From Ectocarpus siliculosus (Eukaryota; Sar; Phaeophyceae; Ectocarpales; Ectocarpaceae), in contig FN649741.1 in assembly GCA_000310025.1 (NCBI GenBank), positions 7,950,612-8,014,611 of the forward strand: a DNA stretch of 64,000 bases. The letters run 5' to 3'. The notes under the pieces were generated by a model, which was given only the letters and a program-made list of their open reading frames with translations, was not told the DNA's origin and searched no databases. Each line of letters opens with the position of its first letter. Position 1 is the stretch's first letter. Positions 11,122-34,953 of the stretch are shown here, piece after piece. The position numbers and the translations under genes were made by a program.

Positions 11122-11185
11122 ATGTTGGAGATGCTCTACTTGATCCTCCTGCTGGGGCTCTCCGCGTTGTTGGATACCTCCGCAG
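11122..11185 (+). CDS. Candidate signal-peptide exon
   Basis: From the ATG at 11122 (second ATG 11131) the frame reads MLEMLYLILLLGLSALLDTS followed by Ala. This is a textbook signal peptide: a short polar start, a Leu-rich core, and small residues before a possible cleavage site. It ends at a donor-like GCAG|GTGGGT, leaving one base (phase 1). It is the best secretion signal I found upstream of the LRR exon array and would suit the first exon of that receptor gene. However, no exon entering in phase 1 and leaving in phase 2 was identified between it and 14542, so the link is speculative. It could belong to an unrelated gene or be chance. Confidence 0.35.
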
Positions 11186-13862: not shown

Positions 13863-16800
13863 CCAATCGTGCCATGAATGATTAAGCCCCAACGACCGCG
13901 CCGGAAAGCAGTTGGTACGAATTTCGATGTAGAACATGTGAGGGTGCCCAAGACCAGCTCCAACCTACCCATCGTAGTCTCGCTGTGGTTTTCCCGTCTA
14001 CCCCCAGCCGCAGCACTGCCTCGAAGCTTGCATGGGTTGTCTGTGAAACATACGAGTAGGTCAATTTCGGCTTGAATGTGCGTTCGTTCGGCAATTTTGC
14101 CGGTACATCCATCGTGTGTAAGCATTTGTTGAGGTGATCGAGAGGAGGAGGCGATCTCGGCGTGGCTAGAACCGCGAGCATCGTACTTCTACTGCGGAAC
14201 GGCATAGATTGTCGTTTCCTGGTAATGGCGGTAGACCGTTTACATGGTGGTGCCCTCACGGGCCTGATATTCTAGTCGCCCATCCGATCCGCGGTGTACG
14301 CAATGCAACCCTGGAACGAGTTACGACTGACAACATCGCCCTCAGCTGTAGCGGGAATGATTGTCCCCAGGTATTCACACGGAGGCGAGAACCGTGACTT
14401 TGCTAGTAGCACAGAACACCGTCTGTGCATGTTTTGGTGGGCTTGTCGCACCTTGTAGATGACTGTGTGAGGTAGCAAGCACTGATTCCTAGGTAACGTG
14501 TGTTCTCTGCTCCGCTCGTGGCCTTCCCTCGACATCCACAGGTACCTGAATGACAACGAGCTCACCACCTTGTCTGAGGGAACCTTCGGGGGTCTTACGG
14601 CCTTGGAAACACTGTAAGTACTGTAGCTGTTCGACGGTAGGATACTTCCCGTAGCCTGCGATGAAGAACACAAAGACCACAGACCAATCGTGCCCCTGAA
14701 CCATTAAGCCCATAGAGCGCGTCAGAACGAAGCTGGTAGGAATTTCGGTGTAAAACAGGTGGAGGTGGCCAAGACCAACTCCAACCTACGTACCGTAGTC
14801 TCACTGTCCGTCTACCCCCAGCCGCGGTACTGCCTCGAAGCTTGCATGGGTTTGTCTGTGAAACACACGAGTCGGTCAATTTCGATCTGATTGTGCGTTC
14901 AGTCGGACATTTTGTGGGTGCATCCATCGGACGTATGCATTTGTTGAGGTGATCGAGAGAAGGAGGCGATCTCCGCATGGCTAGAAACGCGAGTACCTAA
15001 AGATCGTCCTTCCACTACGTGACGAGATAGATTGCCGTTTCCTGGCAATGGCCGTAGACCATTTAAATTGTGGTGCCCTCACAGGCCTCACATCCTATTC
15101 CCTTATCCGATCCGCGGTGTGCGCAATGCAACCCTGGAACGGGTTACGACTGACAACGTCGCCCTCAGCTGTAGCGGGAATGGTGTGATTGTATCCAGGG
15201 AAGCACGCTGCTGCGTAGTCACGTTGCTAGCAGTACAGAACACCGTCTGTGCACGCTGGCAGGCTAGCCGCGCCTTGCAAATCACCATGTCCGGCAGCAA
15301 CAACTGATTCCTAGCTCATGTGTATTGTCTGCTCCGCTCGTGGCCTTCCCTCGACACCCGAAGGCACCTGTATTCCAACGGACTCACGACCTTACCTGAG
15401 GGAATCTTTCATAATACAACGGGTCTACAAACACTGTAAGTAGTTGTTCGACATGGTTATCGGTAGGATGCGCTTCCGCATCGGGTCAGCCTGCCTAACC
15501 CTAACCAAAGGCCACAGACCAATCGTTCCCCTGAACCATTAAGCCCCAACGACCGCGCCGAAAGGCAACTGGTGGGAGTTTCAGTGTAGAACAGTTTGGG
15601 GTGCTCAAGACCAGCTCTCAACCTACGCACCGTAGTCTCGCTGCCGTCATGGTGTCAGCCTCTAACCGCTGCACTGTCTGGAAGCTTGCATGGGTTTGTC
15701 TGTGAAACACACGAGTCTCGGTCAATTTCGATCTGATTGTGCGTTCATTCGGACATATTGCGGGTAGATCCATCGGATGTATGCATTTGTTGAGGTGATC
15801 GAGAGAAGGAGGCGATATCGACGTGGCTAGAAACGGGAGCACCCAAGGATCGTACTTGTACTGCGAAACTGTGTACATTGTCGTTTCCTGGCAATGGCGG
15901 TAGACCTTTTACATGTTGGTGTCCTCACGGGCCTCGTATCCTAATCTCTTATCCAATCCGCGGTGTGTGCAATGCAACCCTGGAACGGGTGACGACGGCT
16001 AACTCAGCAGCTGTAACGGGAATATGGCAGGATTGGTATGATCGTACCCAGGGAATCACGCGGCGGCGTAGAATCCGTGACTTTGGGAATGCCACAGAAT
16101 GCCGTCTGTGCATGTTGGTGGGCTCGCCGCGCCTTGCAAATCCCCATGTCCGGCAGCAAGCACAGGTTCCTAACTCACGTGCGTTCTCTGCTCCGCTCGT
16201 TGCCTTCCCTTGACACCCGAAGGTACCTGGCTGAGAACGAGCTCACCACCTTACCTGAGGGAATCTTCGGGGGTCTGGCGGCCTTGGGAACACTGTAAGT
16301 AGTTGTTCGACATGATTGTCGGTACTTGTAGGATGTTTTTCCGCATACGGTGAGCCTGCGATGGACAACACAACGCCCACTGACCAATCGTGCCCATAAA
16401 TCATTAAGCCCCAACGACCACCCCGGAAAGCAACTGGTAGGAATTTTGGTATTGAACAGGTGGGGGTGCCCAAGACCAGCTCCAACCTACGCACCGTAGT
16501 CTCGCTGCGGTTATCGCGTCCACCCCCCACTGCTGCACCGTCTCGAAGCTTACGTTGAAATGGTTGTGTCTGCCAATCACACGATTCCATCAACTTCGAT
16601 CTGCATATGCGTTCATTCGGCCATTTAGCCGGTAAATCCATCGCATGTATGCATTTGTTGAGGTTATCGAGAGAAGGAGGTGATCTCGAGCACCCAAAGA
16701 TCGTACTACATATCGGGATCCGTTTCCTGGCATTGGCCGTAGACCTTTTACATGGTGGTGCCCTCATTGGCCTCATATCGTAATCCCTTATCCGATCCGC

Positions 16801-18430
16801 GATGTACGCATTGCAACCCTAGAACGGGTTGCGACGGCCAACTCAGTCGCCTCAGCTGTACATTAGTGGGAATATGGCAGGATTGGTATGATTGTATCCG
16901 TGACTTTGCTAGTGCCACAGAACGCTTTCTGTGTCTGTTGGTGGGCTCGCCGCGCCTTGTAAATCACCATGTCCGGCAGCAACAACTGATTCCTAGCTCA
17001 TGTGTAATGTCTGCTCCGCTCGTGGCCTTCCCTCGACACCCGAAGGCACATGTATTCCAACGGACTCACGACCTTGCCTGAGGGAATCTTTCATCATGCA
17101 ACGGGTCTTCAAACACTGTAAGTAGTTGTTCGACATGATTGTCGGTAAGACTTTTTCCCGCATCGGGATAGCCTGCGATGGACAACACAACGACCACAGA
17201 CCAATCGTTCCCCCTGAACCATTAAGGCCCAAGGACCGCGCCAGAAAGCAGCTTGTAATGCTTTCGGTGTAGAACATGTGGGTTAATTCAAGACCAGCTC
17301 CAACCTACGCACGGTAGTCTCGCTCCGGTTATGGTGTCTGCCCCCAGCTGCTGCACTGTCTCGAAGCTTGGGTCGGGACGATTGTCATACAGACGGTTTG
17401 GTCAAATTCGGCCATTGTGCGGGTAGATCCATCGGATGTATGCAGCTGTTGAGGTGGTCGAGAGGAGGAGGCGATCTCGGCGTGGCGAGAAACGCAAGTA
17501 CCCAAGCATCACCATCGCCACGGGGTAGGTCATTGTTTTTTGGAATTGACGGTAGGCCTTTCACATAGTAGTGCCCTCACGGTCCCATTTTCAATTCTCT
17601 TATCCGATCCGTCGTGTACGCAACGGTAAACGGGTTCGGACGTCCAACTCAGTCACCTCAGCTGCAGCGGGAACAAGGCAGGATTAGTATGATTCTATCC
17701 TGGTCGTCGCGCGGCGGCGGTCCGTGACTTTGCTAGTCCCACAGAAGCCGACTGTGCATGTTGGTGGGCTGGCCGCGCCCCGTAGAACACCATGTGAGGC
17801 AGCAAGCACTGGTTCCCAACTCATGTGTGTTCTCTGCTCCGCTCGTGGCCTTCCCTCGACATCCACAGGTACCTGTCTGAGAACGAGCTCACGACCCTGC
17901 CCGAGGGAATCTTCGGGAGTCTTACGGCCGTGGAAATTCTGTAAGTAGATGTTCGACATGGGGACAGGTAGGGAATTTTCGGCATCGGGTTAGCTTGTGA
18001 TGGAGAACACACAACACCACAGACCAATCGTTCCCATGAACCATTAAGCCCCAACGAGCGCGCCGGAATGCAATTCGTAGGAGTTTCGGTGTAGTACAGG
18101 TGGGCGTGCCCAAGACCAGCTCCAACCTACGCACCGTAGTCTCTCTGCGGTCATCGCCTCTACCCCCAGCCGCTGCACTGTCTCGAAACTTGAGGTTGGA
18201 TGGGTTTGTCTGTCAAGTACACGAATCGGTCAATTTCGATTTGAATGTGCGTCAATTCGGCCATTTTGCTGGTGTATCCATCGGATGTAAGCATTTGTTG
18301 AGGTGATCGAGAGGTAGAAGCGATCTCAGTGTGGCTAGAAACGCGAGTACTCAAGCGTCGCTATGCATAGCGGGATAGGTCGTTGTTTTTGGATTTGACG
18401 GTAGACCTTTCACATACTAGTGCCCTGCCT
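13863..18430 (+). repeat. Tandem ~0.82-kb LRR exon-intron units
   Basis: Five consecutive units each carry one 72-bp LRR exon plus flanking intron sequence that is itself repeated. Recurring intron blocks include CCAATCGT followed by CCATTAAGCCC, a GACCAGCTCCAACCTACGCA block, TGCATTTGTTGAGGTGATCG and the pre-exon block TCTGCTCCGCTCGTGGCCTT. Exon-to-exon spacing is 822, 859, 823 and 823 bp. The exon-less part of a sixth unit breaks off near 18430. Because introns and exons duplicated together, the array arose by unequal crossing-over or tandem duplication of whole units, not by retroposition. Confidence 0.9.
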
Positions 18431-19601
18431 CATATGTGAGCCTGCGCACTGCTCTGTGGTTACGGGCGTGATGGTATGTGTCTATCGTGAGCGAGAGAGA
18501 GGCCATATGCGCATGTCCAACAAGTGTTTTGAGGGATTCTGGGCGGTGCCATAGTGCTAGCAGCGATATAGAAGTATACTGTAGAAGTCGGCGGGGCTTG
18601 GTAATTTCCTAAATGGTCTATGTACTGTATCCAGTACGCCCGTCAACGGAAACGGGCAATGTAGTATCCTTCGGAGAACCCCCGAACCATGAGACACCAC
18701 CCTCCAAAGAATTCTCGCTGGTGCATCACAAATTGCATACCTTTCGAACGCCTTATCTTTAGAAGCGCCCGGGGGGTTAATGGTCGAATGTTGGGCGGGT
18801 GACCAGACGTTAACTCCGAACAGCCGTCCCTGTGGAGATATTTGAGCGTGCTTCCATTCACTAGGGCACAGCCATGTTGACATGCCGGCGAGCCCTAGGC
18901 CTACAGGGCCCCGCAACTCCCTAATAGTCAGATCACACGGATTCCGACCCCCCGAGGCCTCGTGTATCATACCCACCACGGCGTACACCTATCAGATCTT
19001 ACATAGGCAACGGTTTCCTCTCCCCTGGGCTGGGGTTGGGGCACCACTATGTTTGGTGGTTTACCAAAAACATTATGAAAATTTGCCTTTTCGTCCCGAA
19101 ATGCGGTAAAACGTGTGTGAGGCAAATTGGACAAACACCAACACCCCTGAACACTCCATTTTTTTCTTTACACCTGGGAACGTTGAACCCCGTGGGCTCT
19201 ATTTTGGTGTGGAAAGATACCCCTCTAATTTCGATGTCACGCCGGGCTTTTTTTCCCCGTGACATTTATCTTCTCACTGCGGGGGGTGCTCAAGTGATAC
19301 TCCGGTACCGGTCGTACGGCAAGTATATGGTCGCTGTGTATGCAGTGGGCTGGATCTATCATCGGCTCCGCGTGTCCGAAAAATAATTTGGCTGGTCATC
19401 ACGCGGCGGAAAAGAGACGCCGTTACTCTACCAAAGCATTCGAACTTCGTCAACGCAATGGCAAATGGTTGTTCATGGCTAACTTGTCCTTGCCTTGCTC
19501 CGCCCATGGCCTCCACTTGACACTCGAAGGTCGCTGGCCAACAATGACCTCACCACGCTGCCGGAGGGAGTATTCCAGGGTCTCTCGGACCTGACAACAC
19601 T
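14542..19601 (+). CDS. LRR exon array: six 72-bp exons, one repeat each
   Basis: Each exon is exactly 72 bp, begins after AG with a single G and ends ...CT|GTAAGT, so introns split one Leu codon in phase 2 and each exon adds 24 residues. The consensus is LxxNxLTTLPEGxFxxLxxL. Exons 1, 3 and 5 (14542, 16223, 17869) share a YLxxNELTTL...FGxL type. Exons 2 and 4 (15364, 17046) share a HxYSNGLTTL...FHxxTGLQ type. Exon 6 (19530) is SLANNDLTTL...FQGLSDL and lies outside the regular units. Exons 2 and 4 differ at 5 of 72 bases by my count; type-A exons differ from each other at 9-12. Amino-acid changes cluster at the variable positions between conserved Leu and Asn, the surface that binds ligands in LRR domains. 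One LRR per exon is established for Ectocarpus LRR-GTPase genes; no GTPase domain is seen here. Confidence 0.88.
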
Positions 19602-22600
19602 GTAAGTGGCTACGATGCTTTTCCGCATGGGCTCAGCCTGTGCTACAGAAATGAAATCACCAAACGTTTTCCCGGTTTGCTCGGGAGATGCTAGGGAGAG
19701 TATCATTGCACTTGAAGCGCTACTGTCCAAGTCGGCGAGAGTTTGGTACTTTTAAATCAGCCCCCTTGCTCTAACCTGGCGCCAAAGATGGTACCCAGCG
19801 CACCTGGAACGGGTAGCTGAGAAGTTCGGACGCTCTTCGGTGCTGAAATGATTGATCGTTGGCACGGTTGGTTGAAAATGGTCCTCTTACGAATTTCCTC
19901 AACTTCGTACTCTAGTCTCGTGCAGATACTCTACGGTCTACCGTGCAACCACATCACAGTTTGTTGTTTTCGTCTTTCCGTCTTCCGTGCGCAATTGGGA
20001 GATTCGAGGCCAGGTAGCTAAACGTGCTGGGAACGAGGTTCATTTTGTGGTCCACAGGATACATAGCCCGGGCACGACCTTTGGTATCGGTTGTATGCTC
20101 GTCGTTGTTGCTGACGGCGTACGTGCTTAATGCACTGAGCCCTGTCTGCATTCGGCATGAGATCACACCCATACTTGTGCTTTCCTTATCTCAGTGTTTC
20201 GCATATGGCCTCAACATGCAGGTTCTCTTGTAGACCCTTTGATGCTTACGTAAAAACGAACACCCGCAAATCCTGGAAATGTGGTACTAAGTACTTCGTA
20301 GGGAATCATTGTACACCTTGGCCCAAGGTAGCGTGCAATATCCAGTTTATTGTTGTTTTCTTTCGAATTGCTTCATTATTTTTCTTCGGGTTCTAGGCCA
20401 CATGTTGGGAAGCGAGACACACGGAACGCCCATCGTCTCACCAGCCACATTAAATTAACTAATACGAGGCGCCAGGTTTCCGAACAATTAACGAAACTAC
20501 AAATCCGAAACTGATCACCAACACACCATATTTTATTCTGTCTGTTCGACGAATATGCTTTCCTCTTCCCGACATGGCAAGCCTTTTGGGTTAGGATCTT
20601 GCAAAGCTCCTTTCTCAAGCCCCTCCGGTTTTACTGAAAGTTATTCCTTTCTTGGAGCGAGCTTCCATCATATATCAGGAGGAGTCCTTCGATTTCCTCC
20701 CAGGCACCCCATGAGAATAGAGGAGTAGACTGTCGTCCTATTCTACCATTTTCTCCCTACTTCGACCGTCATGGGCGCGGTACTGCGGGCGTGATTTGTT
20801 GCTGTCCTAACCTAGCGCTCCCAACGAGCTGCTCTTTGTATCGGTAGTGGCACCTTGCTTACCTTGCTGTTCCCTCCTCCTCAACGTTTGGTCCGTTGTT
20901 GCATCTGCTGTTCTCGTCCGGTCTTGCGCTGGCGAATCTCGTTCGGGGCCTGGATTTTAGGTGGCTGGACGGAAACGCTCTGGAGTGCTTGCCCTCAACC
21001 ACACTGTGAGGAACGCCAAATACGCATCGATCGATGGTTTCGAAATACATATCAACAGAGCATTTGGACAACAGTATCACGCGTTTGGGGATCTAGCCAG
21101 CATCACGTAGAGACCAAGCACACCATTGTTGTCCGCTGCTGCTCGCGATATCGGACGAATGCGTCTTCCTGTAGCATTATTTCTCTGAATGTTAACCGCA
21201 ATGTGCTTCGTAGAACACTAAAATCGTCGAGCCGCTATCGCGTTGGCCGTATTGTTCGGGCCCACAACTATTTAGTTTGATCGCGCACGCATTGGCTCTT
21301 AACATGTCTAAATCACGCAATGCATCTTCGGTTGAACCTGCAGAAAGGAGTTTTTCCCGGCTTGCTCCTTGCTTGTGTTTTGCGCATGAAGCATTTTCGT
21401 TGATGCATTGCATCGTAGATCAACATCGCTTCATTTGCTTAGACCATTTAGCGCACCCTGTTGACCTCATGTGCGCACTTCGCAGGGTGGAAGTTGATGA
21501 TGATGTTTCGGACGGGCTCCACGTTGATGCATACGGTGACGAATGTGGTGAGTGGTTCGCCGAGAAAGGTGTACCGATGGGGTTGGTGCTCGATAGGTGC
21601 TCACCGGTACCATGTTGCTTTTGCTGCCTTGCAGTCTTTGCCCCACGAAAGTATCGGGTAGATCATGTCGCTTTTTCAAATGAGGGTGCCTAGTAGCAGC
21701 TCGCGTGGGATTTTGGTTTGCGCTCCATTTAACAATCGAGGCATCCCACAGCGGCTCTTGGTGGGAGCGGCACAGAGGTCCAGCGAAACATCGTTCGGCG
21801 TCGCCCGTTGGTCCAGATACTGTACATATATTACACGCTCCCTCGTGCAATCTGGATCGCTGTGAAGGGCGGACAGCTGTACCATCTGCAGACTATACCG
21901 TGAAGAGAACGCATGGCAAAACGGGTCACGATGGGTCTGCAAATCGATTCAATCGCGACCATCGTTTGACGTCAAGACGATGATCGAAAGGAGCTGCAGT
22001 GCTAATTGAGCCCAAACGCGGCTGTTCCATGCTACTTGACAGCTCTCACTCTGTGCAAAAGCGCATCTCCAAACCTCCGCGCGAGACTGGTTTCGAAGTT
22101 CACAATCTGGCGAGGGGTGGATGCAGGCATGCTTAGTTTGGGCGAGAAGTGTTGTCATCGTTCTCCCCAAGCAGCACCATTGTAGGCTTTGTACCTTCAT
22201 GTGCAAATATTGCCATGCGCCCCCCACTGACGTGCTTCGAACGTTTTCAGGGTGTTCTATTACGGGCGTGGTCGACAACGTGTGCGGAGAAGAAACGTGC
22301 ACTCCCGGAGATGAAGGATACACCTGTGGTGAGAGAAGATAGCCCCGCAAAGCATATTCCGTAGTAAATTATCCTCTACATCGAGGGGCTTGGGCAGTCG
22401 ACGAACTGACACTCTCCAACACCCATAGTCTAGATTCACCACGACAACAAGTGCTTCTCGATGTTTAGGAACAAGATGCAACCTTGATTTAGCATGCTCA
22501 TTTTGGCCAAGACGCCATCTGCTACTTATTTTATAATTCGGTGTTTGTTTGAACTGTCAGCTGATGGCCTACGAAGGCAGTAAGCAGACATGCACCAAGA

Positions 22601-25600
22601 AGACATGCATCGTCTACTCTGTTGTAATAAACTCCGAACGACAGCGACTGAACGATGTTCGGGCAGGAATCGCATAGGTTAGATTTGCGACCGCTCTTTG
22701 TCGCCGGACCCATTCAATACTTTAGAAGACTTTCCTCAAGTAACTATTGTGCCAACTGATTGGGTGCGCGCATTCATGCCCCCAATAAAGGTCGCCTGTC
22801 CTTTTTTCGTTGTTGGCTTGGTTCCCACTCCTCCAGTTGGGATTGTGTAGGGTGAAGCATGACCAACTGGTTAAACTCTCGCGTGATCCAACCCAATAAA
22901 TCCTTCAATACCCGCCAACCCGGTATCTCGCGGCAGCGGCCACACTTGTGCCTGCGCCTACACCTGCACCGGGTACAGTCGCGCCGGGATCTACCCCACT
23001 ACCTACGCTGGCACCCGGCTCGGGCTCAGAAGGTAAGAGACTTGATGCCGCATCTCCCGTTCAACTAGGGCATGCCGTATTGTCAATAACAGCCACTACG
23101 TCGTCGAATACTGACATATCCCCGGCTTTGCTCCAAACATGCCCAGTTCACTACTGTCCGGAGTGATATTTTCCGCACTCAAAACTCTCCGCCCTCCTCT
23201 AAGCTACAATGTTCACGGGGTTAGGCCGCTAGCGAACGAATGGTCTTAGCTTCCCCTAGTAGTCCTGTTTGCCGACCTCTGTTGCTCGTGTGCTTCCTAC
23301 ACGTTGGGCAAGGGTCATCGTATACATGTGTTGTAGTAAATCCGAACGACAGCGATTGAACCGATGTGCCGGCAGGAATTCTGTAGTTTACATTTGCGAC
23401 CGCTTTTTGGCGCGAGACACATTCCATACTTAGGACTTTCCCAAGCACTAGTCTTCCTAACGTGTGATGGTTCTTCCAAGTGATCGAGTGCGCGCATCCA
23501 TGCCCCCGATGAAGGTCGTCTGTCGTTTTACCCTTGTTGGCTTGGCTTCCCGCTCCTCCGACTGGGGGTATGTAGGGTCAAGCGTTTGAGTAACTGGTGA
23601 AGCTCACGATTGCCCAATCCAAATACGTCCTTCAATACCCGCCAACCTGGTATTTCGCGGCAGCGGCCACACTTGCGCCTGCACCTACACCTGCACTGGG
23701 CACGGCCGCGCCTACGCCGGCACCCGGCTCGAGCTCAGAAGGTAAGAGACTCGATGCCGCATCCTCCGTGCAACTGTGGCATGCCGTGTTGTCAGTAACA
23801 GCCACTACGTCGTCTAACGTTGACATCCCTCCGGATTTTGCTCCGAACATGCCCAGTTCACTACATACTATCCGGTGAGATATTTTCCGCACTCAAAACT
23901 TTAACCCTCCTCACAGCTACGCTATTCTATCCTTCAAGTGACGGAGCTAATAGTCATCTCCGCTAGTGAACGAATAGTATCAGCTTCCCCTAGTATCTTG
24001 TTTGCCGACCTCTGTTGCTCGCGTGCTTCCTACACGCTGGGCAAGGGTCACCGTACACTTATGTTGTAGTACATTCGAACGACAGCGATTGAACCGATGT
24101 GCCGGCAGGAATCCTGTAGTTTGCATTTGCGACCGCTCTTTGTCGCGAGATCTATTCAGTACTTATATTATAGACTTTCTCAAGCACTAGTCTTGTCTTC
24201 CTAACCTGTGATTGTTTTCCCAACTGATTGAGTGCGCGCATCCATGCCCCCAAGGAAGGTCGTCTGTCGTTTTGTCTTTGTTGGCTTGGCTTCCCGCTCC
24301 TCCGACTGGGGGTATGTAGGGTGAAGCTCTCGCGTGTCCAACCCAAATAAATCCTTCAATATCCGCCAACCTGGTTCTCGCGGCAGCGGCCACACTTGCG
24401 CCTGCGGCTACACCTGCACTGGGCACTCCCGCGCCGGGATCTGCCCCTCAACCTACGCAGGTGCCCGGCTCGAGCTCAGAAGGTAAGAGACTTGATGCCG
24501 CATATTTCGTTCAGCTGGGGCATGTCGTATTGTGCGAAACAGGAACTACACCGTCGAATACTGGCACATGCCCGGCTTTGCTCCAAACATGCCCAGTTTA
24601 CTACCATCCGGAGTGATATATTTCCGCACCAAACACCGGCCGCCCTCCTCAAGGGTGCGCTATTCTATCCAGCATATCACGGGGGGCAACCGGTCCTCTC
24701 CGCTAGTGCACGAAAGGTCTCAGCTTCCCATAGTGGTGCTGTTTGCCGAGCTCGGACGCTTGTGCGCTCCCTACATGCTGTGTAAGGGTCATGGTATATG
24801 TTGGGGTAACTCCGAACGACAGCGATTGAACCGATGTGCCGGCAGGAATCCTGCAGTTTACATTTGCGACGGCTGTTTGTCGCGAGACCCATCCAATACT
24901 CATAATATAGACTTTCTCAAGCACTATGTCTTCCGAACGTGTGATTCTTCCAACTGATTGGGTGTGCGCATCCGTGCCACCAAGCAAGGTCGTCTGTCGT
25001 TTTTTCCTTGTTAGCTTGGCTTCCCACTCCTCCGGCTGGTGGTATGTAGGGTGAAGCATGACAAACTGGTGAAGCTCTCGGTTGTCCTAACCCAAATACG
25101 TCCTTCATTACCCGCCAACCCGGTATCTTGCGGCAGCGGCCACACCTGCGCCTGCGCCTACACCTGCACCGGGCACGGCTACGCCGGGATCTACCCCACC
25201 ACCTAGGCCGGCACCCGGCTCGGGCTCAGAAGGTAAGAGACTTGATGCCGCATTTCCCGTTCAACTGGAGCATGCCGTATTGTCAATAACAGTCACTACG
25301 TCGTCGAATACTGACATATGCCCGGCTTTGTTCCAAACATGCTCAGTTCACCACCATCCAGGGTGATATTTTCCGCACCCAATACTGGTCTAGTGGTAGC
25401 CTTGAAACCGCTAGTGGCAGAATCGTGAGTTAGGGCCCTCATGCGGTGGAAAATTTACGTTCTTGCGAGTGTATCCGAAAAAATTGAACTGCTCGTGAGT
25501 ACCAAACCTTCGACGTGAAGCCGAGTCTTGAGCACTCTGAGATTTATTTTTCCTCTCTCTCGGGGGGGGGGTTAGTCTGCACGGGAAAAAATATACAGAT

Positions 25601-28600
25601 CCAAGCGACCGTCTCGGTTCCTCGAGGCATGTTTTTCCCCGGGGGGAAAAAAGGCCGGGTAGTCTGCACGGGAAAAAAAATTCAGATCAAAGCGACCGTC
25701 TCGGTTCCTCGAGGCATGTTTTTCCCGGGGGAAAAAAAGGCCGGTTTAAGTTTTTGTTGGTCACAACATGCTTCCGTTCACGGTTTTGGCTCGTGTGCGA
25801 CCAACAAGACACCGAGCGCCCTGTTTTTGGTTCGCCTGCAGAGGGCATGTGCATGAGCGCCCGCCATTGGCTGCACTTGGTGGGTGTCGTCGGCCAAAGG
25901 TCTCTCTCTGTTGTGCGTTGTTGACTGAGCATACTCGGAGAAACCAGAAAAAAAAAGCAACGTCCAAAGCAGTCAACACCGAAACATACTTGCGTTCATG
26001 TTTGCGTGTGCAATAAAAACTTGACAATACGCCCTTTTCTGGGACGCTAATAGCAGAGGGTATGAGTATGACCGCACGCCATTGACTGCAGTTAGTGGAT
26101 GTCGACGGCGTAAAGCTTCTCTCTGGCATGCGTTTTTGGAAAATCACACATGCCGCAGGCACAAAACAGTCTCTTTTCGGCCGAAAGGCAAGAACGTCAA
26201 CAGAGCAATGTTGCAGGGTTAATGTTTCGGCTCGTGTGTGGCCAACGCGACGCAGAACAACCTGAAATTCAGATACCTGCAGAGGGCTTGTGCATGACCT
26301 CGTGGTACTGGCCTCTGTTCCAGCAGACGGTGCACTGTAGTTCCTCGATCTGGGACGATCGCCCCCATTTCTAACCTCGAAAGTATCAGCCGATCCAGCT
26401 TAGAATCTGGGCCTATCTTCTAACTTGCCAACTGAAATCCCAGGAAATATTCGGTCAGTATGGATTTAGCTTTAGGAACATGCCATTTTTCTCCGCGTAA
26501 GGGGCTACGAAAAGAACAAAAAATGCATCCTGAAATTAATCAGTGCTGAAGTCGCTGCCTTAGCAACGTCGACGAGGGAAAGGGACGCGGCTGTACCCTT
26601 CTCGCGACCAAAGATAATATTTAGCACGTACATGTACAGCAGAAGGAAGGTGGGACACGAGAATACCAGTGAACAGAAGCCCCCGTGTTTCCCCCCTCCT
26701 GTGTGACCCTGGATGGTTTGTCAGTAGTTGTGTGAAATAATAAACTGAAGAATGAAGTATTATAGAGAAGTATACATAGCACACGTCTCATCATGAAAAA
26801 TGGGGGGAGTGTCGCCGTAACAAATACCTGGTAGGACGAAAATACACACACACACACGCACGACAGCGGCCGCCCTCCTCAAGGCTACGTTTTTCTACCC
26901 GGCATATCACGGGGCTAGGACTCATTCCCGTTAGTGAACTAAGGGTCTCGGGTTCCCCTAGCGCTGTTAAGACTTCTGTTCCTTGTGTGTTGCCTACATG
27001 CCGTGTTGGGGTCATGGTATACTTTTGTGTTGAAATAACTCCGAACGACAGCGACTGAACCGATGTTCCGGTAGGAATCCTGAAATTTACATTTTGCCGC
27101 CACTGTTTATCGCGAGACCCATTCGACACCTATAACGAAGACTTTCTCAAGCACTATGTCTTCCAAACGTGTAATTTTCATACAACTGGTCGCGTGCACG
27201 CATCCATGCCCCCAACGAAGGTCATCTGTCGTTTTTTCCTCGTTGGCTGTCGTTGTTTCCTCGTTGGCTTGGCTTCGCTCCTCCGGCTGGGGGTATGTAC
27301 ATAAGGCGAAGCATGACTAACTGGTGAAACCCTCGCATGTCCAACCCAAATAAATCCTTCAATACCCGCCAACCTGGTATCTCGCGGCAGCGGCCACACT
27401 GGCGCCTGGGGCTGCACCTGCACTGGGCACGGCCGCGCCGGGATCTACCCCTCAACCTACGCAGCCACCCGGCTCGAGCTCAGAAGGTAAGAGACTTGAT
27501 GCCGCATCTCCCGTTCAGCTAGGGCATATGCCGTATTGTCAAAAGCACGAACTACGCCGTCGAAATGTTGACATATCCCCGGCTTTGTTCCAAACATGCC
27601 CAGTTCATTACCATCCGGAGTGATATTTTCCCGCACCAATCATCGGCCGCCCTCCTCATGGCTACGTTATTCTATCCGGCATATCACGGGGCTAGTAGTC
27701 ATTGCCGCTAGCGAACGAATGGTCTCAGCTTCCCCTGGTAGTGCTGTTTCCCGACGAGTGCTGCTTGTGTGCTTCCTACACGCCGCGGGGGCATGGTCGT
27801 TTGTTTTTCTGTAGTTCTGTTAATCGTTTTTTTACAAATGCCCTACCTCGTGGTTGATGGCGAGTCAATGGGTTTCGGCGAAATCTAACACTCTCCCTGA
27901 TGACGTGCTGGAGAGGATGGGAGGATAGGATACATTGGCGGTGTCTCACGGTCATTACTCACGCGATCGCGACGTGGCGCCGCCAAATAGCGCCCAATAG
28001 TACCCTTTTTGTTTGTTCTCAGCAGGTATGTTTGCTCGGCACTGCAGCCCGTCTCATACGGGTTGCCTTCTGCGTCACTTCTCCTTTTCTCGCACCATCC
28101 CCAGTCACCGCCCTCCCACGGGTCGTACAGGAGGGGAACGGTTGCGTTGTGGAAGAGTGCATGGCGTCGCAACGCCGACGAGCTTGGTTTCCGAAATAAA
28201 CCCGTCTTGAAACCCCCATGGAAAAATGTATGTCTAGGCTCTCGTTCGTTTTTTTTTCCGTCCACTGATTGACCGTGGCCGTCAAGGTTTCTGGGTACAA
28301 TAGTGTTTGAGAGCTGGAGGTTGTCCACCTTCATGATGGATGAGGTGTTGTTCTCATGCGCGGAACCCGTCCAGTTTAGCCGATAAATTTACCCTCCCAG
28401 GTTGCCATCGACCCTCCAAAGTACCATGTACTTGCTTTGAGGAAACGGCCGGTTGCACACAAAACGTTTACGCACACAGTCTTGTGTAAAACCTGCGGTG
28501 AGATGGCAAAGACTATCGCAAAGACTAGCACTGAAATGCTTCGGGTTGATACGTCGAAAAAACTTTGTCCTGTTACCAGCCGTTGCCTATCGGACTCCCG

Positions 28601-31600
28601 CCTCCATCAACGCTCATCGCTGCTCGTCCGCCGCTCGTCTGGTCACAGAGGGCGCATCGACGGTGGACGTTGTGGTCGGCGTTGCGGCGGGCGCGCTGGC
28701 GTTAGCAGCATTGGGGTTCTTCCTACATCGCCGGCGGGCCGCGAAAAGCACGGACCCCGACCCGCCGGCCCCTCCTTCTAACGGTTTGGACAGCCTGGAG
28801 CACGGCCGGGGTGAACAGCACCGGCAACGGCAGCAGGACCTCCACTCCTCTTCGCCGATCATCGCCGGCTCCGCCGGGGGCAACGTTACCCGCTGTCCGC
28901 CACCTCCTGCCCAGCAAGTTTTTCAAAGCTTTGCGCCGCCGCCCCCATCGTATGCGCATGATAATGCACACCGACGCGGTGCTTGGCCAGCCTCCGCCAG
29001 TCAGCAGCATGTGGTTATCGCCGCTGAGACAACACTCGGCGAAGATGGCACGACCATCCAATCGTTGTTCCCAGCGCCACCCGTGGGTACCTTGCCGAAT
29101 CCCAGCTCCAAGGGAAAGCCCAAGCGCACACGCGACAACAATGAAAGCGGTGGTGGCACCAGGACGGCGGACGCGGGCGAGGGCGGGGGGGATGCTGTGG
29201 AAGACGGCGACGGCTGCGTGGCGGTAGCCGAGCAGTCGCTGCTGCCGTTGACGACTACGAACTCCACCAACGACGTGTCGACGGAAGAACGGACGGCCGA
29301 GGTTGCCGGGTTCGGGTTTTCGGTAGACGAAGGCGCCGACGACCCTCCTTCGGCGGCTGCTCCTGCTGGCCGCCGACAGACGCCCAGCGGCGTCGGGTAC
29401 GGTCAGGCAGTACTGGCGGCGGCAGAGGAGCTCGCACATCATTGTCAGATCCCCGGCATCAGTGAGGCAGCGACAGCGGTGTCGATTCTGATACACTTGG
29501 TCGTGGACACTGAGGACTTGACGAGCAGCGCCGGGGTTAAGCGGTGCCGGTCGATCGTGATGATGCTCGAGCGGGCGGCGAAGGTGCTCGGCAAGGTGAG
29601 CGACATGACTGGTGTTGTTGGAGTGTGCACAATGCATTGTTCTGTCGTATGTATCCTGCCTGATTTAGAGACGTCGAAGGTGTTGGAAACAAGCTTTCTT
29701 CTTGGCGTACATATTGGAATTTTCAGGTACGATCAAAGATCTGTCACGCGGTGTCCTTCGCTTGCTCCTGCAGAATCGCACAGTTCTCTCTGCCACAAAA
29801 ACTAGTTGAGGCATTTCAATGCCTCATGATGTCGATATTGTTTTGGCTTCGTTTGAGCCAAAGAACCCCGAAACTTGCAGCTTGTGTCTCGTGGAAGGTT
29901 TTGCCGTCATTGTCCGGAACGCAAGCCTATATTTCATCACGGGTTCGAGCGGTTGGGCCTATACGTGGTCTGTACTCGTGCGCATTGTGTCTGTGCTGTT
30001 TCAAATATTGAAATGTTTTTTGTTGCACAAATTGTCAAAAGAAATATGGACCAGGTCCTTCGATCAGATTGGAAGCGTTTCGTCTTGTTTTCTTTTTATG
30101 GTCAGATTTGGATCATGAATTGCAAAAATGAGTGCGCAATAGGCGTAGGAACGCCTGCTGTTTAGTCGTTGAGTGTTTGCTGAGGCGACGCCCACACCAC
30201 CCCGACCACCCCCAACACCTACTCTCTGCTGCTGTGCGACTGTGGTGTGATGTGTGCGAAGGCGGGCACATCGTTTTCTCCGTTGTGCAAATGTTGTCGC
30301 TCGATAAAAATCGTTGTGCACGTCTCGTATGCATACTGTTGTGTACATGTAGGGTGGCGACACGAGCACGGAGGAGGAGCGCGTTTTGATGGAAGAAGTG
30401 CACGATGCCGTCTCCGATCTCGTGGAGCTGATCACATCTTACCAGAACAAGAGCAAGCTCGGCAAGGTGTTGACATCGACCCTGTTCAAGCGGCGCCAGG
30501 ACGAGCTGAACGCGGTTATCGACAGGGCTATCTGGGGCCTGCACGTGAGTGCCGTGTACCACAAAATATGCCATCATAGTCTTCTTACAATGTAAGTTTT
30601 CTGTGAGAACGCTTCATTTCGCTTCTTTCGGCTGCTGTGAGCGCTCTATTCCGGTCTTCTCGGGCTCTCACAGAGCAGCATTTCCTCTGGAAATTTGGCA
30701 CTTTGGTGGACTTTCCACTTTTATCTTCCGCTTTTATCTCTCTCGCCTGCTGCTGTCACCCCGCTCTGTACCATCATACCGCGCATTCCACTCGAAGTAC
30801 GGCCCTCTCTGTGTGTGCCTCCTTCTCCTCCGTTCCTCCGTCTCTCTATGTCTCTGACGGTCTGTCTATCCACATTCTCTTTTCATTTTCGCCTTCTCTC
30901 TTGACCGCTCTCGCGTCGGAATGGTCTGTTGTTTGTTCCGATTCCGTGTGCTACTGCTGTACATTTTGTTTTTTCTTCGAACACCTTCACACGGTATGCA
31001 CTCACCTCCTATCACCTTGGTACCGTATTCTCTCTCTCTCTCTCCTCTCGGTGTGTGTGTGTGTGTATCCACGATGTCTTTAATTTTTTGCTTTTCTCTC
31101 TTCACCGCTCTCGCGTCGGAATGGTCTGTTGTTCGTTCCGATTCCGGCAACGGTGTTGTGTGCTCCGGTTCCGGTAATCCCTTCTAAAGGTCCGGAAAAT
31201 ACAAAATACACTCCTTTCTACCTCCACTCTCGATGGCTACCCCGGCCCACTCCTCCCACTTCTCTGTAGCTACTCTGGCTACAGTTAAGCACCTTCATTT
31301 TAACAACATCCTACACCCACGTTCAGAGAAAACCTTGCCTTGGAATCGCTTCAAATAAAGCGGGGGCGCGCAGCGCCCAAAACCTTGTACTTAGTATGGA
31401 TTGTACCTCGACTGCGCAGCCAGCTGCGCAAAACATGTGCTGTTGTCTCTCTCATGTCCAGCTACTTCTCAGAGTTCGCTCTGTGCGCATCGCTCATTTC
31501 TTGGAAATGTCGATGTTGGGGTAGGGGACTATATTATCCCGTTTCAGAACTCGCGATTTGACCATTGGCAACGCGGGGTACACCTAATGGGAAGCCCTCT

Positions 31601-34600
31601 CGTAGAGGGGTCGGGCACGGCTGCAATCGGACAAACGTAGGGTTGCCTCAAGGCGCTGAGCACGTCGACCGAACCGTACAGGCAGGTAGGACTCTGTGGT
31701 TTCGCCTTACCGCCTGCCTTTTTCCATGTTGGCTGCTTGTTGTTCGTCCAGTTGGGCCTGCAGGTGCAAGTGGGACACGACGTTGCGCACCTCGTCAAGG
31801 TGAGGGCGTGCCACGGAGATGAAGCGAACTTTTCCCAGAATTCTTCGATTTCAGATGCTGTTGCTGCCCGCCGCAAGATTGTGCCTCGGTGGCTTGTATT
31901 AACCACGGGCCAAGCAGGGCTATGCTCATTGGCCCTCCTGGATCGCGGTATCCATGTAAAGGGCCCTCTCGAGGACATCCCGTTTTCACCTTCTTCACCG
32001 ACTCGCCTCACCTTTTGACCGAATCACTTCTGTGGTCGGGAGGGTTCAGTCAAACAACTCAGGATGTTTTGCGTTTGGCCATGTGCCCCTCGGTGATTTT
32101 TCGTTCGTTTCTATTTACCAGAGGTCAACCGCGGAGGCCCAGGCTCAGGCAGAATCTCTGGCACAAGCCCAGGCTCGGGCAGAATCTCTGGCGGAAACCC
32201 TCAGGTCGAGGCGGCAGCGCAAGCTTGACCAGATCGAAATCCCCGAGGAACACGTGTCGATCACGACCGAGGTGCTGGGAAAGGGGGGCTTTGGCGTGGT
32301 GTACCTAGCCGACTACAACGGCCACAACGCGGCGGCTAAGGTATGAGTGAGCCATTCGCGACCTGTAGGCCGAAGCATCTGCGAGTACAGTCTAACCACC
32401 GAGCGAGCGAGTAGGGCCTGCCTGGGGAGCGGAGAAACCACCCGCGACCACCGGCAGGAGTCATCTTCACCCCTTTTTCGTTTTCCGCTGTCGTGCTTTG
32501 TCTGGTTCATTTTCGTGTTATTGACGACGTCGGTACATGTATCGCTGAATGATGCAGGTACAACACTTCACCCACGGCCTCGGCAAGCCGGGAGAGAACG
32601 ACATACCACTGAGTGAGCCAAGATCGGTAGAATCTAATGCACTGCGGGAGAAGGCCGAGCGTAAGGCATTCCTGCGCGAGCTGGACGCCATGGTTCGCCT
32701 GAGAAATCCTCATACCGTCAACGTCTACGGGGCGATCACCTCGCTGCCGGACCGCCTTGTTCTGGTCATGGAGCTGCTGGCGGGCGGTGACCTTCGGGCC
32801 ATGCTGAAGAATTCCGAGCAGCCGCTTCCCGAGGATAAGTGCCGACAGATTATCCAGGATGTCTGCGCGGGGATGGCCTTCCTGCACAGCAAGGCGACGG
32901 TGCATGGTGACCTCAAGTCTGCCAATGTTCTTCTGGATGGCCGTGGAAGGGCAAAGGTATGGTCGTCTTGTGCTACATGTAGATCGTGTCGTATTGCCGC
33001 GCTGGTGATGGTCCTGGCTGTCTGTGGAAGGGTTGAGCACGTACCCCGCATTCCTGTCGTCCTGTCGCCCGCCTCTGACGAGAAACGTCCACACGTTGCC
33101 CACACCGGCCGCTACAGGATGGGTCCCATGTAATTGTTTGTCGGTGGTGGTGGTGTTGAATTCGGCCGAAGAAAGAGCCGACGGCACCGAATTCTTCACT
33201 TTTCCGTGTAATTGAACACGAGTTGCTTTGAAATGTTCAAACCCACAACATCACCCACAAAATATCTCAACAAGTTTTTTATCCTGCTGATTGGTCGTTT
33301 CATCTCTCCAGATTGGGGACTTCGGCACCTCTAGGTGGGCTCAGAACACCGAGAGGTCCACAGGCCTTGCCACGTACACCACCAATCCGGGACCAAGCGC
33401 CCACATTAGCTTTGCATGGACTGCCCCAGAGGTGAGGAGACGGCCTGGGTTTCTATCGTTTTCGGTGCTGGACTTTTACGGTGGTATCAACATGGCAGGG
33501 ATGCGGGGTATTTGCCTCTGTTCATCTGGAACAACACTGAACACGCCTGTGAAGTTGACGAATGCACGCGGTCTAGTCAGAGTGGTTATGGTCTACTTCA
33601 GCTGAATTCCCGCACTGCTTGCAGATGTGAAGATCATGTGATACATCCAGAGAAATCTAGACTGAACGGCGTACTCTCGAAACTTTCCGCAAAACGTGTT
33701 AGGCGGCGTTGAGCGTCTCGGCAAGACGGCAGGCAACCCGCATGGATGGATTTGGGCTGAGTTTTTGAAGTACTCCAGAAAGTTTTTAGGGTTTCGGAAG
33801 ATGTGCATCGTGTCAGCCAACAAGGGTACGTTGGCGAGTCTGTGAAATTGTTTCGTCTTGGAAGCTCTATGTCTCTGTCGCCTTGGAAACCGTCCTCTCG
33901 GTGTTCTTTTCCTCCAACGGAGAACCACAACAGTGGCGACTATTGTCTGGTGTGGTGCAGTGGCGAACATGAAGCACGAACTTCAACCAACGGCTGTAGG
34001 TGCTGCCGCTCAAACTGTGCAAGATTATCTACAGGTCCATGCTCCCTTGTAGATGAAAAGTCAACATTATTGACGCTGCCCCGCGCCTAACCGGCTAGTT
34101 GTGTACGTCACGACGGTTTGAGGGATTTCGAACGCGATTTTCACGACAAGATCAGCCTGCCTCCAACAGGACTAGACTACTGTTGAGAGACCTTTGCCAT
34201 ACCCAAGTTCGAAACTACATGGGGCGTGCTCAGTGGCCGTCGATAGTTGTGTAACTGAAATACAGGAGCTGGCTTGTTTCCGTCATGCGGTGCAAAGCAC
34301 ACATCACGAGAGCCATCTCGACCCACGGCTCGTGCTTCAAAGCAATTGGCAGTGCCTCTGTGGTGTCAACACCGGCTGCACGAGCAGTGAGGGAGGTTCC
34401 CGGTGTTGTTGGTGTTCTACGCGGAAGGTGCCTAGTCCGGCGGGCACCCATCCGAAGTGGACCAATTGGGAAATTCACGGTGCTGTTCTCTCCTTGATCG
34501 CGCTTCGGCGATCCAGCGATACTAGCGCGAACGGCGTATTGCAACGCCTTTAACAAGGTGTGTACAGTAGGTATGTTGCGATTCGCATGCAACTTGTCCC

Positions 34601-34953
34601 GTACGTGCGATCGAAGGCTCTCTTGGGCGTTGTGATTGCGCGTCTGACACTGTTCTCTTCCACCTGCGTGCGAGAAGGTGCTGGAGTCCAAGGAAACCTC
34701 CACGGCGAGCGACGTCTACAGCTTCGGGATGGTGGCGTGGGAGGTGCTGACGAGACAGACACCTTGGGCGGACCAAGCTCGGCCTCGAGACATCTACCTC
34801 CGTGTTGTCATGCGTGAGGAACGCCCCGCGATTCCCGCGGATGCCCCCGTAGACATCGCAGAGATGGTGCGCAGCTGCTGGGCCCAGGAGCCCGAAGACC
34901 GCCCGACGTTTCCAGGGCTTTGCAACTGGGGGTACGTCCGACGGACGGCTTGA
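14542..34953 (+). CDS. LRR receptor-like kinase with cassette-exon arrays (5' end not found)
   Basis: Predicted single-pass receptor kinase. Exons: LRR 14542-14613, 15364-15435, 16223-16294, 17046-17117, 17869-17940, 19530-19601; cap 20961-21005, 21486-21547; stalk 22937-23032, 23664-23741, 24387-24482, 25137-25232, 27391-27486; TM 28580-29595; then 30353-30544, 31752-31799, 32122-32340, 32558-32956, 33312-33431, 34678-34953. Splice phases agree at every junction (2-2 for LRRs, 2-1 for the last cap exon, 1-1 for stalk, 1-0 for TM, 0 afterwards). They give an unbroken frame of about 1,089 residues to a TGA. Domain order: LRRs, C-cap, Pro-rich stalk, TM, helical bundle, kinase. Signal peptide and N-cap are not identified (candidate at 11122). 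The 3' end is uncertain: a donor-like GTACGT lies in the last exon. The gene could instead be two neighbours, but the phase match at 27486/28580 argues for one. Confidence 0.62.
18431..19529. other. Spacer interrupting the LRR array
   Basis: The regular LRR unit breaks off near 18430, and this unrelated sequence separates it from the sixth LRR exon. A 143-codon minus-strand open frame (18557-18988) lacks a recognisable domain. The block may be an insertion in an intron. No terminal repeats were found. Confidence 0.4.
19602..20960. other. Probable receptor intron
   Basis: No LRR exon or other domain was recognised. The stretch lies between the last full LRR exon and the first cap exon and is read as an intron of the receptor gene. 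Confidence 0.4.
20961..21547 (+). CDS. LRR C-terminal cap exons (two)
   Basis: Exon 20961-21005 (45 bp, TTTTAG|G ... ACACT|GTGAGG) encodes WLDGNALECLPSTT plus a split Leu. This is a shortened last LRR ending in the GNxLECxPST style typical of C-terminal LRR caps. It enters and leaves in phase 2; a TGA immediately after the donor means the frame must splice. Exon 21486-21547 (62 bp, TTCGCAG|G ... TGTG|GTGAGT) encodes an acidic stretch, VEVDDDVSDGLHVDAYGDEC, with a terminal Cys that could pair with the Cys of LECLP. It enters in phase 2 and leaves in phase 1, exactly the converter needed between the LRR exons and the phase-1 stalk exons. Both assignments rest on motif style and splice phase, without transcript evidence. 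Confidence 0.68.
21548..22936. other. Receptor intron leading into the stalk array
   Basis: From about 22500 this intron is homologous to the intron part of the stalk units, with blocks such as ACTCCGAACGACAGCGA and TTGGGTGCGCGCATTCATGC. No additional exon with matching phase was recognised. Confidence 0.45.
22937..27486 (+). CDS. Pro/Thr/Ala-rich stalk: five cassette exons
   Basis: Exons 22937-23032, 23664-23741, 24387-24482, 25137-25232 and 27391-27486 each follow GCGGCAG and end CAGAAG|GTAAGA. Four are 96 bp and the second is 78 bp, an in-frame 18-bp loss. Each begins with two bases and ends with one (phase 1-1), so exons join as ...SE-A-AT.... Each encodes a module like ATLAPAPTPALG followed by Gly/Ser/Pro and a GSSSE ending. 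Such Pro/Thr/Ser/Ala-rich sequence is typical of extended, often O-glycosylated extracellular spacers. The exon-end G joins the CC at 28580 as an Ala codon, linking the stalk in frame to the transmembrane exon. The number of modules would set how far the LRR head stands from the membrane (inference). Confidence 0.72.
25385..26866. repeat. ~1.48-kb insertion within the stalk array
   Basis: The stalk-unit sequence breaks after TTTTCCGCACCCAATACTGG and resumes at CGGCCGCCCTCCTCAAGG. The inserted DNA has an 83-bp tandem duplication (about 25577-25655 and 25660-25742, with GACCGTCTCGGTTCCTCGAG), two diverged copies of a CAGAGGGCATGTGCATGA-type block (about 25838 and 26050), and a dispersed-repeat copy at 26780-26860 ending in a CA run. 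I found no transposase and no clear target duplication. Confidence 0.65.
28580..31799 (+). CDS. Receptor TM segment and MLKL-like helical bundle (exons)
   Basis: Part of the receptor gene. Exon 28580-29595 enters in phase 1 and carries a 21-residue hydrophobic segment (28663-28725, VDVVVGVAAGALALAALGFF) followed by HRRRAAK, a stop-transfer signature that places the rest in the cytosol. A Pro/Ser/Gly-rich, acidic low-complexity linker follows. From about 29395 the sequence becomes helical (AAAEELAHHCQIPGISEAA, then KRCRSIVMMLERAAKVLGK). It continues through exon 30353-30544 (EEVHDAVSDLVELITSY ... FKRRQDELNAVIDRA) and exon 31752-31799. Pattern and spacing resemble the four-helix N-terminal domain shared by MLKL and fungal HeLo-like proteins; this is pattern-based and not proven. 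The frame is open upstream to 28453 but has no ATG before residue MML, which supports an internal exon start at 28580. Confidence 0.7.
32122..34953 (+). CDS. TKL-type protein kinase domain, non-RD (exons)
   Basis: Kinase part of the receptor gene, four phase-0 exons. Exon 32122-32340 starts with an Ala/Gln/Glu coiled-coil stretch, then the glycine loop LGKGGFGVVYLA and the ATP-binding Lys (AAAK) as its last codon. Exon 32558-32956 holds the helix-C Glu (FLRELDAM), hinge VMELLAGG and catalytic loop HGDLKSANVLL. Exon 33312-33431 holds IGDFGTS (metal-binding Asp) and the activation-segment end WTAPE. Exon 34678-34953 holds SDVYSFGMVAWEVL and the C-lobe Arg motif DRPTF. All key catalytic residues are present, so it should be active. 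The Arg of HRD is replaced by Gly, making it a non-RD kinase; in plants such receptor kinases are often immune receptors. Family placement (TKL/IRAK-like) is by motif style. The C-terminus after DRPTF is short and may continue in a further exon. Confidence 0.85.

Follow-up and report, generated by a model that had tools for sequence, protein, structure and literature searches.

We asked whether the exons for leucine-rich repeats (LRRs), caps, a Pro-rich stalk, a transmembrane (TM) helix, a helical bundle and a kinase that lie along a 64,000-nt window, the whole stretch of Ectocarpus siliculosus DNA analysed here, belong to one gene or to separate fragments. A sequence-only reading had proposed a single LRR receptor kinase beginning at 14542, spanning about 20 kb and encoding about 1,089 residues. 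Its single-gene view is supported by an unbroken ATG-to-stop frame and by three paralogous loci in which this exon series recurs on one strand; its start and size are not, because the gene begins at 11122, with the LRRs preceded by one exon for the signal peptide and two for the N-cap. The locus is very probably one plus-strand gene (11122-34953) encoding a predicted single-pass membrane LRR receptor kinase. The complete chain runs from the signal-peptide ATG to the stop through 25 exons (1,182 residues, 23.8 kb), with matching phases throughout and GT/AG borders at 24 of 24 introns.

A probable single gene from signal peptide to stop codon

Every exon proposed earlier is present where it had been placed, with AG/GT borders, and the phases chain as described (LRR and cap1 exons 2-2, cap2 2-in/1-out, stalk exons 1-1, TM exon 1-in/0-out, all later exons 0-0). 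Four plus-strand exons had been overlooked, three of them at the 5′ end. SP (11122-11185, phase out 1) holds the start codon and a signal peptide, MLEMLYLILLLGLSALLDTSA, judged hydrophobic by eye, and is kept in paralogues C55 and C12, the latter reading ACG in place of ATG. N1 (12501-12558; 58 nt, 1-in/2-out) encodes an N-terminal Cys-containing segment and N2 (12913-13002; 90 nt, 2-2) the LRR N-cap SLSSCGITDADFDDLASCLEAAGPETITSL; both recur in paralogues. A further 5′ candidate, an exon that opens with GVDLTQQ (about 11.72 kb), is conserved as DNA, and we omitted it from the model because indels between paralogues break its frame.

A scan of the window for single-LRR exons (66-75 nt, AG/GT borders) returned six on the plus strand (14542-14613, 15364-15435, 16223-16294, 17046-17117, 17869-17940 and 19530-19601) and none on the minus strand. 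All six encode one LRR in 72 nt with phase 2-2; the fourth is 93% identical to the second, the first is also recognized by Pfam LRR, and Pfam LRR_8 matches the predicted ectodomain with E 6.9e-42. The array is followed, on the same strand, by cap1 (20961-21005; 45 nt, 2-2), the start of the LRR C-cap, which aligns to the LRR-domain end of an LRRTM chain, then by cap2 (21486-21547; 62 nt, 2-in/1-out) and by the fourth overlooked exon, the Cys-rich cap3 (22251-22328; 78 nt, 1-1), the last two recurring in paralogues. Given cap3, the previously proposed junction 21547/22937 is more likely to be two, 21547/22251 and 22328/22937. Five plus-strand stalk exons, the first Pro/Ala-rich, were placed by AG/GT borders and the phase chain (22937-23032, 23664-23741, 24387-24482, 25137-25232 and 27391-27486; 78 nt for the second and 96 nt for the others, all 1-1). 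Two introns of the gene are long (19601-20961 and 27486-28580).

The plus-strand TM exon (28580-29595; 1016 nt, 1-in/0-out) encodes the one TM helix that separates the LRRs from the kinase (VDVVVGVAAGALALAALGFFLHRRR, recognized by eye), then RRR, a low-complexity linker and the first half of the helical bundle, the second half of which lies in the HB exon (30353-30544, 0-0); both exons recur in paralogues. The short V exon (31764-31799; 36 nt, 0-0), VQVGHDVAHLVK, is identical in three paralogues. Four plus-strand kinase exons follow, all found in paralogues and the first also by Pfam: K1 (32122-32340) with the Gly-rich loop GKGGFG and the AAAK lysine, K2 (32558-32956) with the catalytic loop HGDLKSAN, K3 (33312-33431) from DFG to APE, and K4 (34678-34953) with the C-lobe and the stop. 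K2 ends at a GT donor here and at GC in three paralogues. Pfam PK_Tyr_Ser-Thr matches the kinase with E 3.5e-54, all five motifs are present in the window gene and three paralogues, and the closest solved kinase by sequence is CTR1; the enzyme is probably a Ser/Thr kinase of the TKL kind. In all four genes the catalytic loop reads HGD instead of HRD, which we count against the preferred explanation.

The frame does end at a TGA (34951-34953), as had been proposed, and the exons of that proposal sum to 1,087 codons, stop included and the leading split codon counted, rather than about 1,089. An alternative end of K4 at an internal donor, GGGG|gtacgt (about 34.93 kb), was rejected in favour of the TGA because the sequence at that place in the three paralogues is GGGGAACG or GGGGGAACG, with no GT.

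How readily might such phases chain by chance? The ten internal exon types of the set proposed earlier can be ordered in 3,628,800 ways, of which 240 are phase-compatible (6.6e-5); with the complete exon set the figure is 4,320 of 6,227,020,800 (6.9e-7). Both figures are approximate, since the choice of exon borders was guided in part by the frame. Phase matching is blind to the omission of a symmetric exon. The model supplies exact exon junctions that can be tested in RNA-seq.

Two tandem arrays in a modular phase plan

Both arrays consist of plus-strand tandem exon-plus-intron units. Those of the LRR array (13862-18426) measure about 0.82 kb, with copies about 73-79% identical, and those of the stalk array (22608-27797) about 0.71-0.75 kb, with copies about 75-84% identical, as judged from self-matches listed up to 250 bases. 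The gene is a set of nested symmetric modules, a 2-2 LRR array within a 1-1 block and then a 1-1 stalk array, in which N1 is the entry converter and cap2 the exit converter of the LRR block. Cap2 converts phase 2 to 1, as previously noted, but it is not the sole converter: N1 takes 1 to 2 and the TM exon 1 to 0. Tandem duplication of exon-plus-intron units would alter repeat number with the frame intact, and the modular phase plan would account for the gain and loss of repeats without breaking such genes.

Paralogous loci and selection

At three paralogous loci the exon series recurs in the same order and phase on one strand, apart from a few changed splice sites; the stretches examined hold 4-6 LRR exons and 1-4 stalk exons, one locus having been compared without its 5′ end. 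The stop position varies, three paralogues extending about 4, 5 and 11 residues further. C55 has lost the AG of its TM-exon acceptor and C12 has a frame shift near the same acceptor, so that, together with the ACG start of C12, some paralogues may be damaged. Like the HGD loop, the shifting stop and these lesions weigh against the preferred explanation, as do the bundle loci at which a kinase or cap3 match was not found among the best candidates scored. Two partial copies lacking a bundle match lie on C16, one inverted and directly upstream (C16:7946749-7950634) and one that has SP, cap3, stalk and a portion of the TM exon (C16:6795510-6798822).

Genome matches to the bundle exon, merged by hand, gave 20 loci. 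A kinase match lies within 4 kb downstream on the same strand in at least 16 of them, and a cap3 exon within 9 kb upstream on the same strand in at least 10; among the best candidates scored, no kinase match was found at 4 loci and no cap3 match at 10. These neighbour counts are lower bounds, because the searches score only the best candidates (the best 120 of 678 in one).

Pooled pairwise dN/dS across the HB, V and K1-K4 exons is 0.26, 0.26 and 0.28, and these kinase-side exons are under purifying selection, of which pairwise values cannot assign all to the window copy; the TM exon gives 0.63-0.74. Amino-acid variation among the LRRs is concentrated at predicted concave-face positions: the pN of the five concave positions is reached by 3 of 33,649 five-position sets, their own included. 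Positive selection on the LRR faces was considered (pN/pS 1.13) and is not established, because the bootstrap range is 0.90-1.42 and 2,681 of the 33,649 sets reach the ratio.

A predicted helical bundle ahead of the kinase

The predicted bundle of about 130 residues directly ahead of a TKL-type kinase resembles the arrangement of MLKL and HeLo proteins, a possible link that we examined by Pfam, NCBIfam and PDB profile searches and by hhalign and could not establish. Our main bundle set (A2) had 13 rows, the window and 12 of the 15 regions with bundle matches, omitting C472:204k (a near copy of C472:112k), C33:4462k (internal stop) and C7 (partial); some joined rows were without the splice-point residue, and the C1 row was without the start of the second exon. 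A second set (A4) had 10 rows, six of these 13 members and four of five divergent members. Pfam MLKL_N matched 4 of the 13 members weakly (best E 0.0054, under the curated cut-off) and none of the 5 divergent members, GIT1_C scored as well on the bundle, and the whole 414-residue cytoplasmic-plus-TM piece of the window gene gave MLKL_N an E of 0.16. Alignment of the bundle with an MLKL-type profile by hhalign gave a probability of 0.1% and no significant link, and PDB profile searches with the bundle returned no significant chain (best E 0.24 and 0.11). Elsewhere in the genome, two MLKL_N domains score above the cut-off (C10 and C29), and each has a kinase match downstream at a distance of about 0.5 kb.

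Proposed mechanism and alternative explanations

In the receptor that we infer, signal peptide, N-cap, LRR solenoid and Cys-rich C-cap would form the outer, ligand-binding part, raised above the membrane by the Pro-rich stalk, and a single TM helix would lead inside to the low-complexity linker, the small bundle and an apparently catalytic kinase. A ligand on the concave LRR face might dimerize or re-orient receptors, the bundle might mediate association or relay the change, and the kinase would phosphorylate itself and downstream targets.

The same exons could instead belong to two adjacent genes, one for a secreted or membrane-bound LRR protein that runs from SP as far as the stalk or TM part and the other for a cytoplasmic bundle-kinase. 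The two long introns, the partial C16 copies without a bundle match and the 10 bundle loci without a cap3 match among the best candidates scored all fit such a division, but TM helix and first half of the bundle share one open frame in the TM exon, so that the anchor can hardly be detached from the bundle there, and the phases chain throughout in an order that recurs in paralogues; we consider two genes very improbable. Partial copies nearby and the divergence of the array units might suggest a decayed receptor-kinase copy, yet 25 exons are free of stops and frameshifts, every intron keeps its GT/AG borders, catalytic residues are retained and kinase-side dN/dS is 0.26-0.28, pairwise values whose constraint is not all assignable to this copy, which together leave a pseudogene scarcely credible.

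A further reading would add to the single receptor-kinase gene rather than oppose it: the arrays may be cassettes for combinatorial alternative splicing that yield many receptor isoforms. LRR exons are all 2-2 and stalk exons all 1-1, so any subset stays in frame, the two arrays together allowing as many as 64 x 32 combinations, and alternative use of LRR exons is reported for brown-algal ROCO genes in the available text of PMC11378527. Yet exon-unit duplication alone yields symmetric phases, and paralogues simply vary in copy number; we hold this reading to be possible but rather unlikely. A wider proposal is more doubtful still, in which such genes would form a brown-algal surface immune receptor repertoire, diversified by alternative splicing and by duplication of exon units between loci, with the bundle as a HeLo/MLKL-type effector linking recognition to cell death.

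Relation to known systems

The LRRs match LRRTM, LRRC15 and LRIG1 chains best; variable lymphocyte receptors and Toll rank lower. All share the 24-residue LRR type and can be aligned over the repeats and the beginning of the C-cap; in the window gene, however, the LRRs are separate germline exons, and the relationship that we propose goes no further than the LRR fold.

Within brown algae, Zambounis et al. reportedly described, in 2012, ROCO GTPases with shuffled LRR exons. As far as the available text of PMC11378527 goes, one-LRR-per-exon arrays are published for these genes and discussed as a basis of immune diversity, and the ROCO genes share with the window gene 72-bp phase-2 one-LRR exons, tandem arrays and repeat variation. 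ROCO proteins are LRR-ROC-COR there, whereas the window gene encodes a receptor kinase with a TM helix and adds another exon array; ROC and COR domains gave no Pfam match at E up to 1 in the three parts searched, which together run from the first LRR exon through stalk exon 1 and from the TM exon to the stop. Of 15 S. japonica sequences outside the ROCO group that have shuffling LRR exons, the majority hold only LRR motifs, according to the same portions of that source.

Ectocarpus LRR receptor kinases are themselves on record: the accessible part of PMC3268121 counts 2 genes, and that of PMC8307928, which cites Ectocarpus genome work, notes the family. They share with the window gene extracellular LRRs, one TM helix, a receptor-type kinase and the brown-alga lineage. 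The main text of PMC3268121 does not contain the words exon or intron, and the available parts of both sources describe no stalk exon array, Cys-rich caps or helical bundle, and no counterpart of the at least 10 cap3-plus-bundle loci in one genome.

Brown-algal LRR receptor kinases and the one-LRR-per-exon arrays of ROCO genes are each already published; their union, the second (stalk) array and the unclassified helical bundle ahead of the kinase look new. With the LRR-exon format in putative surface receptor kinases, a stalk array and variation on the predicted binding face, the window family would carry the immune-diversity idea from ROCO genes to the cell surface.

A single receptor-kinase gene of 25 exons

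The sequence-only reading had proposed one LRR receptor kinase of about 1,089 residues. Every exon it named lies where it was placed and is bordered by AG and GT, and the reading frame ends as claimed at the TGA at 34951-34953; the set lacked four exons, SP, N1, N2 and cap3. Comparison of the window with paralogous loci on contigs C55 and C12 revealed conserved segments 5′ of the first LRR exon, yielding the signal-peptide exon SP (11122-11185, + strand) and the Cys-containing exon N1 (12501-12558, + strand; 58 nt, phase 1 in/2 out). A third such segment is N2, an N-cap exon (12913-13002, + strand; 90 nt, phase 2-2), which leads straight to the LRR array. The Cys-rich cap3 (22251-22328, + strand; 78 nt, phase 1-1) follows cap2 and precedes the stalk array. 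Because the DNA between SP, N1 and N2 is also conserved in the paralogues, the 5′ exon choice rests not on conservation alone but on splice sites, phases, frame and Cys-rich or hydrophobic content. The completed gene comprises 25 exons, which read without interruption through 1,182 residues to the stop.

The ten internal exon types of the earlier model admit 240 phase-compatible orders out of 3,628,800; with 13 types, as in the completed model, the figure is 4,320 out of 6.2e9. These odds somewhat overstate the evidence because the reading frame partly guided the choice of exon borders. A missing symmetric exon such as cap3 is by itself invisible to a phase check.

Exon arrays and modular phase plan

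When the window was scanned by pattern for exons of 66-75 nt that each hold one LRR, the six LRR exons came up on the + strand; the − strand gave none. Each array is a tandem series of units made of an exon and its intron (LRR units of about 0.82 kb, stalk units of 0.71-0.75 kb), with copies 73-84% identical. LRR exons 2 and 4 share 93% identity, as if a two-exon unit had been duplicated. The 2-2 LRR exons are flanked by N1, a 1-to-2 converter, and cap2, a 2-to-1 converter, so that the whole predicted ligand-binding block acts as one 1-1 module. Elsewhere in the window, many overlapping short self-matches at about 1270-2200 look minisatellite-like.

In a partial receptor copy at C16:6795510-6798822, SP is followed by cap3, by stalk and by a portion of the TM exon. 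Between SP and cap3, tblastn gave no match to N1, N2, LRR1, cap1 or cap2; whether the copy is a gene or a relic, its layout fits loss of the N1-to-cap2 block as a unit. Just upstream of the window gene lies an inverted partial copy (C16:7946749-7950634, − strand, reaching window positions 1-32) with cap3, three stalk exons and a portion of the TM exon; its DNA is about 74-78% identical to window 22.2-29.0 kb. A TAA is flagged inside its TM match, and the genome-wide search for the predicted helical bundle between TM and kinase lists no match in it. Such nearby partial copies, where the search detected no bundle, may be relics or decoys. Within the window, also on the − strand, a frame at 51885-52508 that matches the DDE_1 endonuclease (E 0.00018, 21.5 bits, cut-off 22) is a possible DNA-transposon remnant, and two overlapping open frames at 40363-41564, by eye like pieces of a retroelement RNase H and a recombinase, have no Pfam match at E 0.01.

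Recurrent linkage in paralogues

We searched the genome (189.5 Mb, 492 contigs), in which the window occupies C16:7950612-8014611, for relatives. Using tblastn of exon peptides against stitched loci, we recovered the exon series in order and on one strand at three paralogous loci: C12 (five LRR, four stalk exons), C55 (four LRR, one stalk exon) and C16b at C16 6.77-6.79 Mb (at least six LRR and at least three stalk exons, its 5′ end lying outside the fetched stretch and a short gap in the stalk region). Exon ends and phases agree among the four genes apart from the K2 donor, TM acceptor, start codon and tail. Kinase exon K2 has a GC donor in each of the three paralogues; the acceptor of the TM exon is retained in C16b, has lost its AG in C55 and has a frame shift nearby in C12; the C12 start codon position reads ACG; and the paralogues stop about 4, 5 and 11 residues further on. 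The three share the 36-nt exon VQVGHDVAHLVK without any change.

That the series represents two separate genes is unlikely. The main evidence against this is recurrent linkage. Of 20 bundle loci genome-wide, at least 16 are followed on the same strand by a kinase match no more than 4 kb away; upstream of the bundle, at least 10 show a cap3-type exon at up to 9 kb and at least 6 a detected LRR exon at up to 20 kb (lower bounds, hand-compiled from separate searches). Within the TM exon, moreover, a single open frame encodes both the TM helix and the bundle's first half, which also argues against two genes. Together, these observations bear out the earlier view of one gene rather than fragments.

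Domains and selection

The LRRs match Pfam LRR_8 (E 6.9e-42); by sequence their best solved chains are LRRTM, LRRC15 and LRIG1, and variable lymphocyte receptors and Toll appear lower among the best 60 of 390 matches. The kinase matches PK_Tyr_Ser-Thr (E 3.5e-54) and, as best solved chain, CTR1 (E 1.3e-36), and keeps its main catalytic motifs in all four genes read. We take it to be a TKL kinase and, from the DLK of its catalytic loop, presumably Ser/Thr-specific.

For the bundle, whose helicity was judged by eye from sequence, no family match reached its cut-off: MLKL_N matched weakly in 4 of 13 members (best E 0.0054) and GIT1_C in 9 of 13 (best E 0.0056), and the five divergent members gave no MLKL_N match and one weak Rx_N match. 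Profile searches of the PDB came no closer than E 0.24 and 0.11, both to designed proteins, and hhalign gave nothing significant. To our eye, its pattern may resemble MLKL/HeLo bundles, an impression that bears only on a speculative reading of the gene. Separately, MLKL_N domains above the Pfam cut-off at C10:3221557-3221892 (38.4 bits) and C29:552094-552429 (36.2 bits) are each followed, about 0.5 kb further along the same strand, by a kinase match and mark possible MLKL-like genes.

With the HB, V and K1-K4 exons pooled, pairwise Nei-Gojobori dN/dS between the window gene and C12, C55 and C16b was 0.26, 0.26 and 0.28. Ectodomain exons outside the arrays gave 0.46, 0.58 and 0.54 (six of them compared with C12 and C55, cap1-3 only with C16b), and the TM exon gave 0.74, 0.73 and 0.63; single short exons, too small to judge, ranged from 0 to about 1.2. 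At five predicted concave-face LRR positions, which we picked from what we take to be the general LRR fold, pN was 0.57 versus 0.15 elsewhere (21 LRR exons, four genes), a pN reached by 3 of 33,649 five-position sets, the concave set included. Their pN/pS of 1.13 has a bootstrap range of 0.90-1.42 and was reached by 2,681 of the 33,649 sets, indicating change concentrated on the predicted face without proving positive selection.

The gene product is most likely a surface receptor. Its LRR block would bind a putative ligand and its stalk would span part of the wall; binding would bring kinase domains together, leading to trans-phosphorylation.

Comparison with known systems

At the level of titles and abstract openings, we found no description of receptor kinases in which exon arrays of this kind encode LRRs and stalk; subscription literature lay mostly outside the search, and Zambounis et al. 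2012 could contain one. In the parts covered here, PMC3268121 puts the number of LRR receptor kinases in Ectocarpus at two, with exon and intron terms absent from its main text, and PMC8307928 notes the LRR receptor kinase family. EsV-1-7 repeats gave at least 150 matches in this genome (150 of 880 candidates scored) and none in 14 control genomes; the covered part of a review describes the family as expanded in brown algae (PMC7457493). Taken with the 72-bp phase-2 LRR exons, these repeats make a brown-algal origin of the genome likely. COR-A gave a single, borderline match (35.5 bits, cut-off 35.3), which fits poorly with the many brown-algal ROCO genes described in the covered part of PMC11378527; split or diverged COR exons may explain the low count. 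The same part reports shuffling and alternative splicing of 72-bp phase-2 LRR exons in these genes and, among 15 other shuffled-LRR sequences in one kelp, mostly LRR motifs only. In its own 72-bp phase-2 LRR exons, the window gene resembles these brown-algal ROCO genes.
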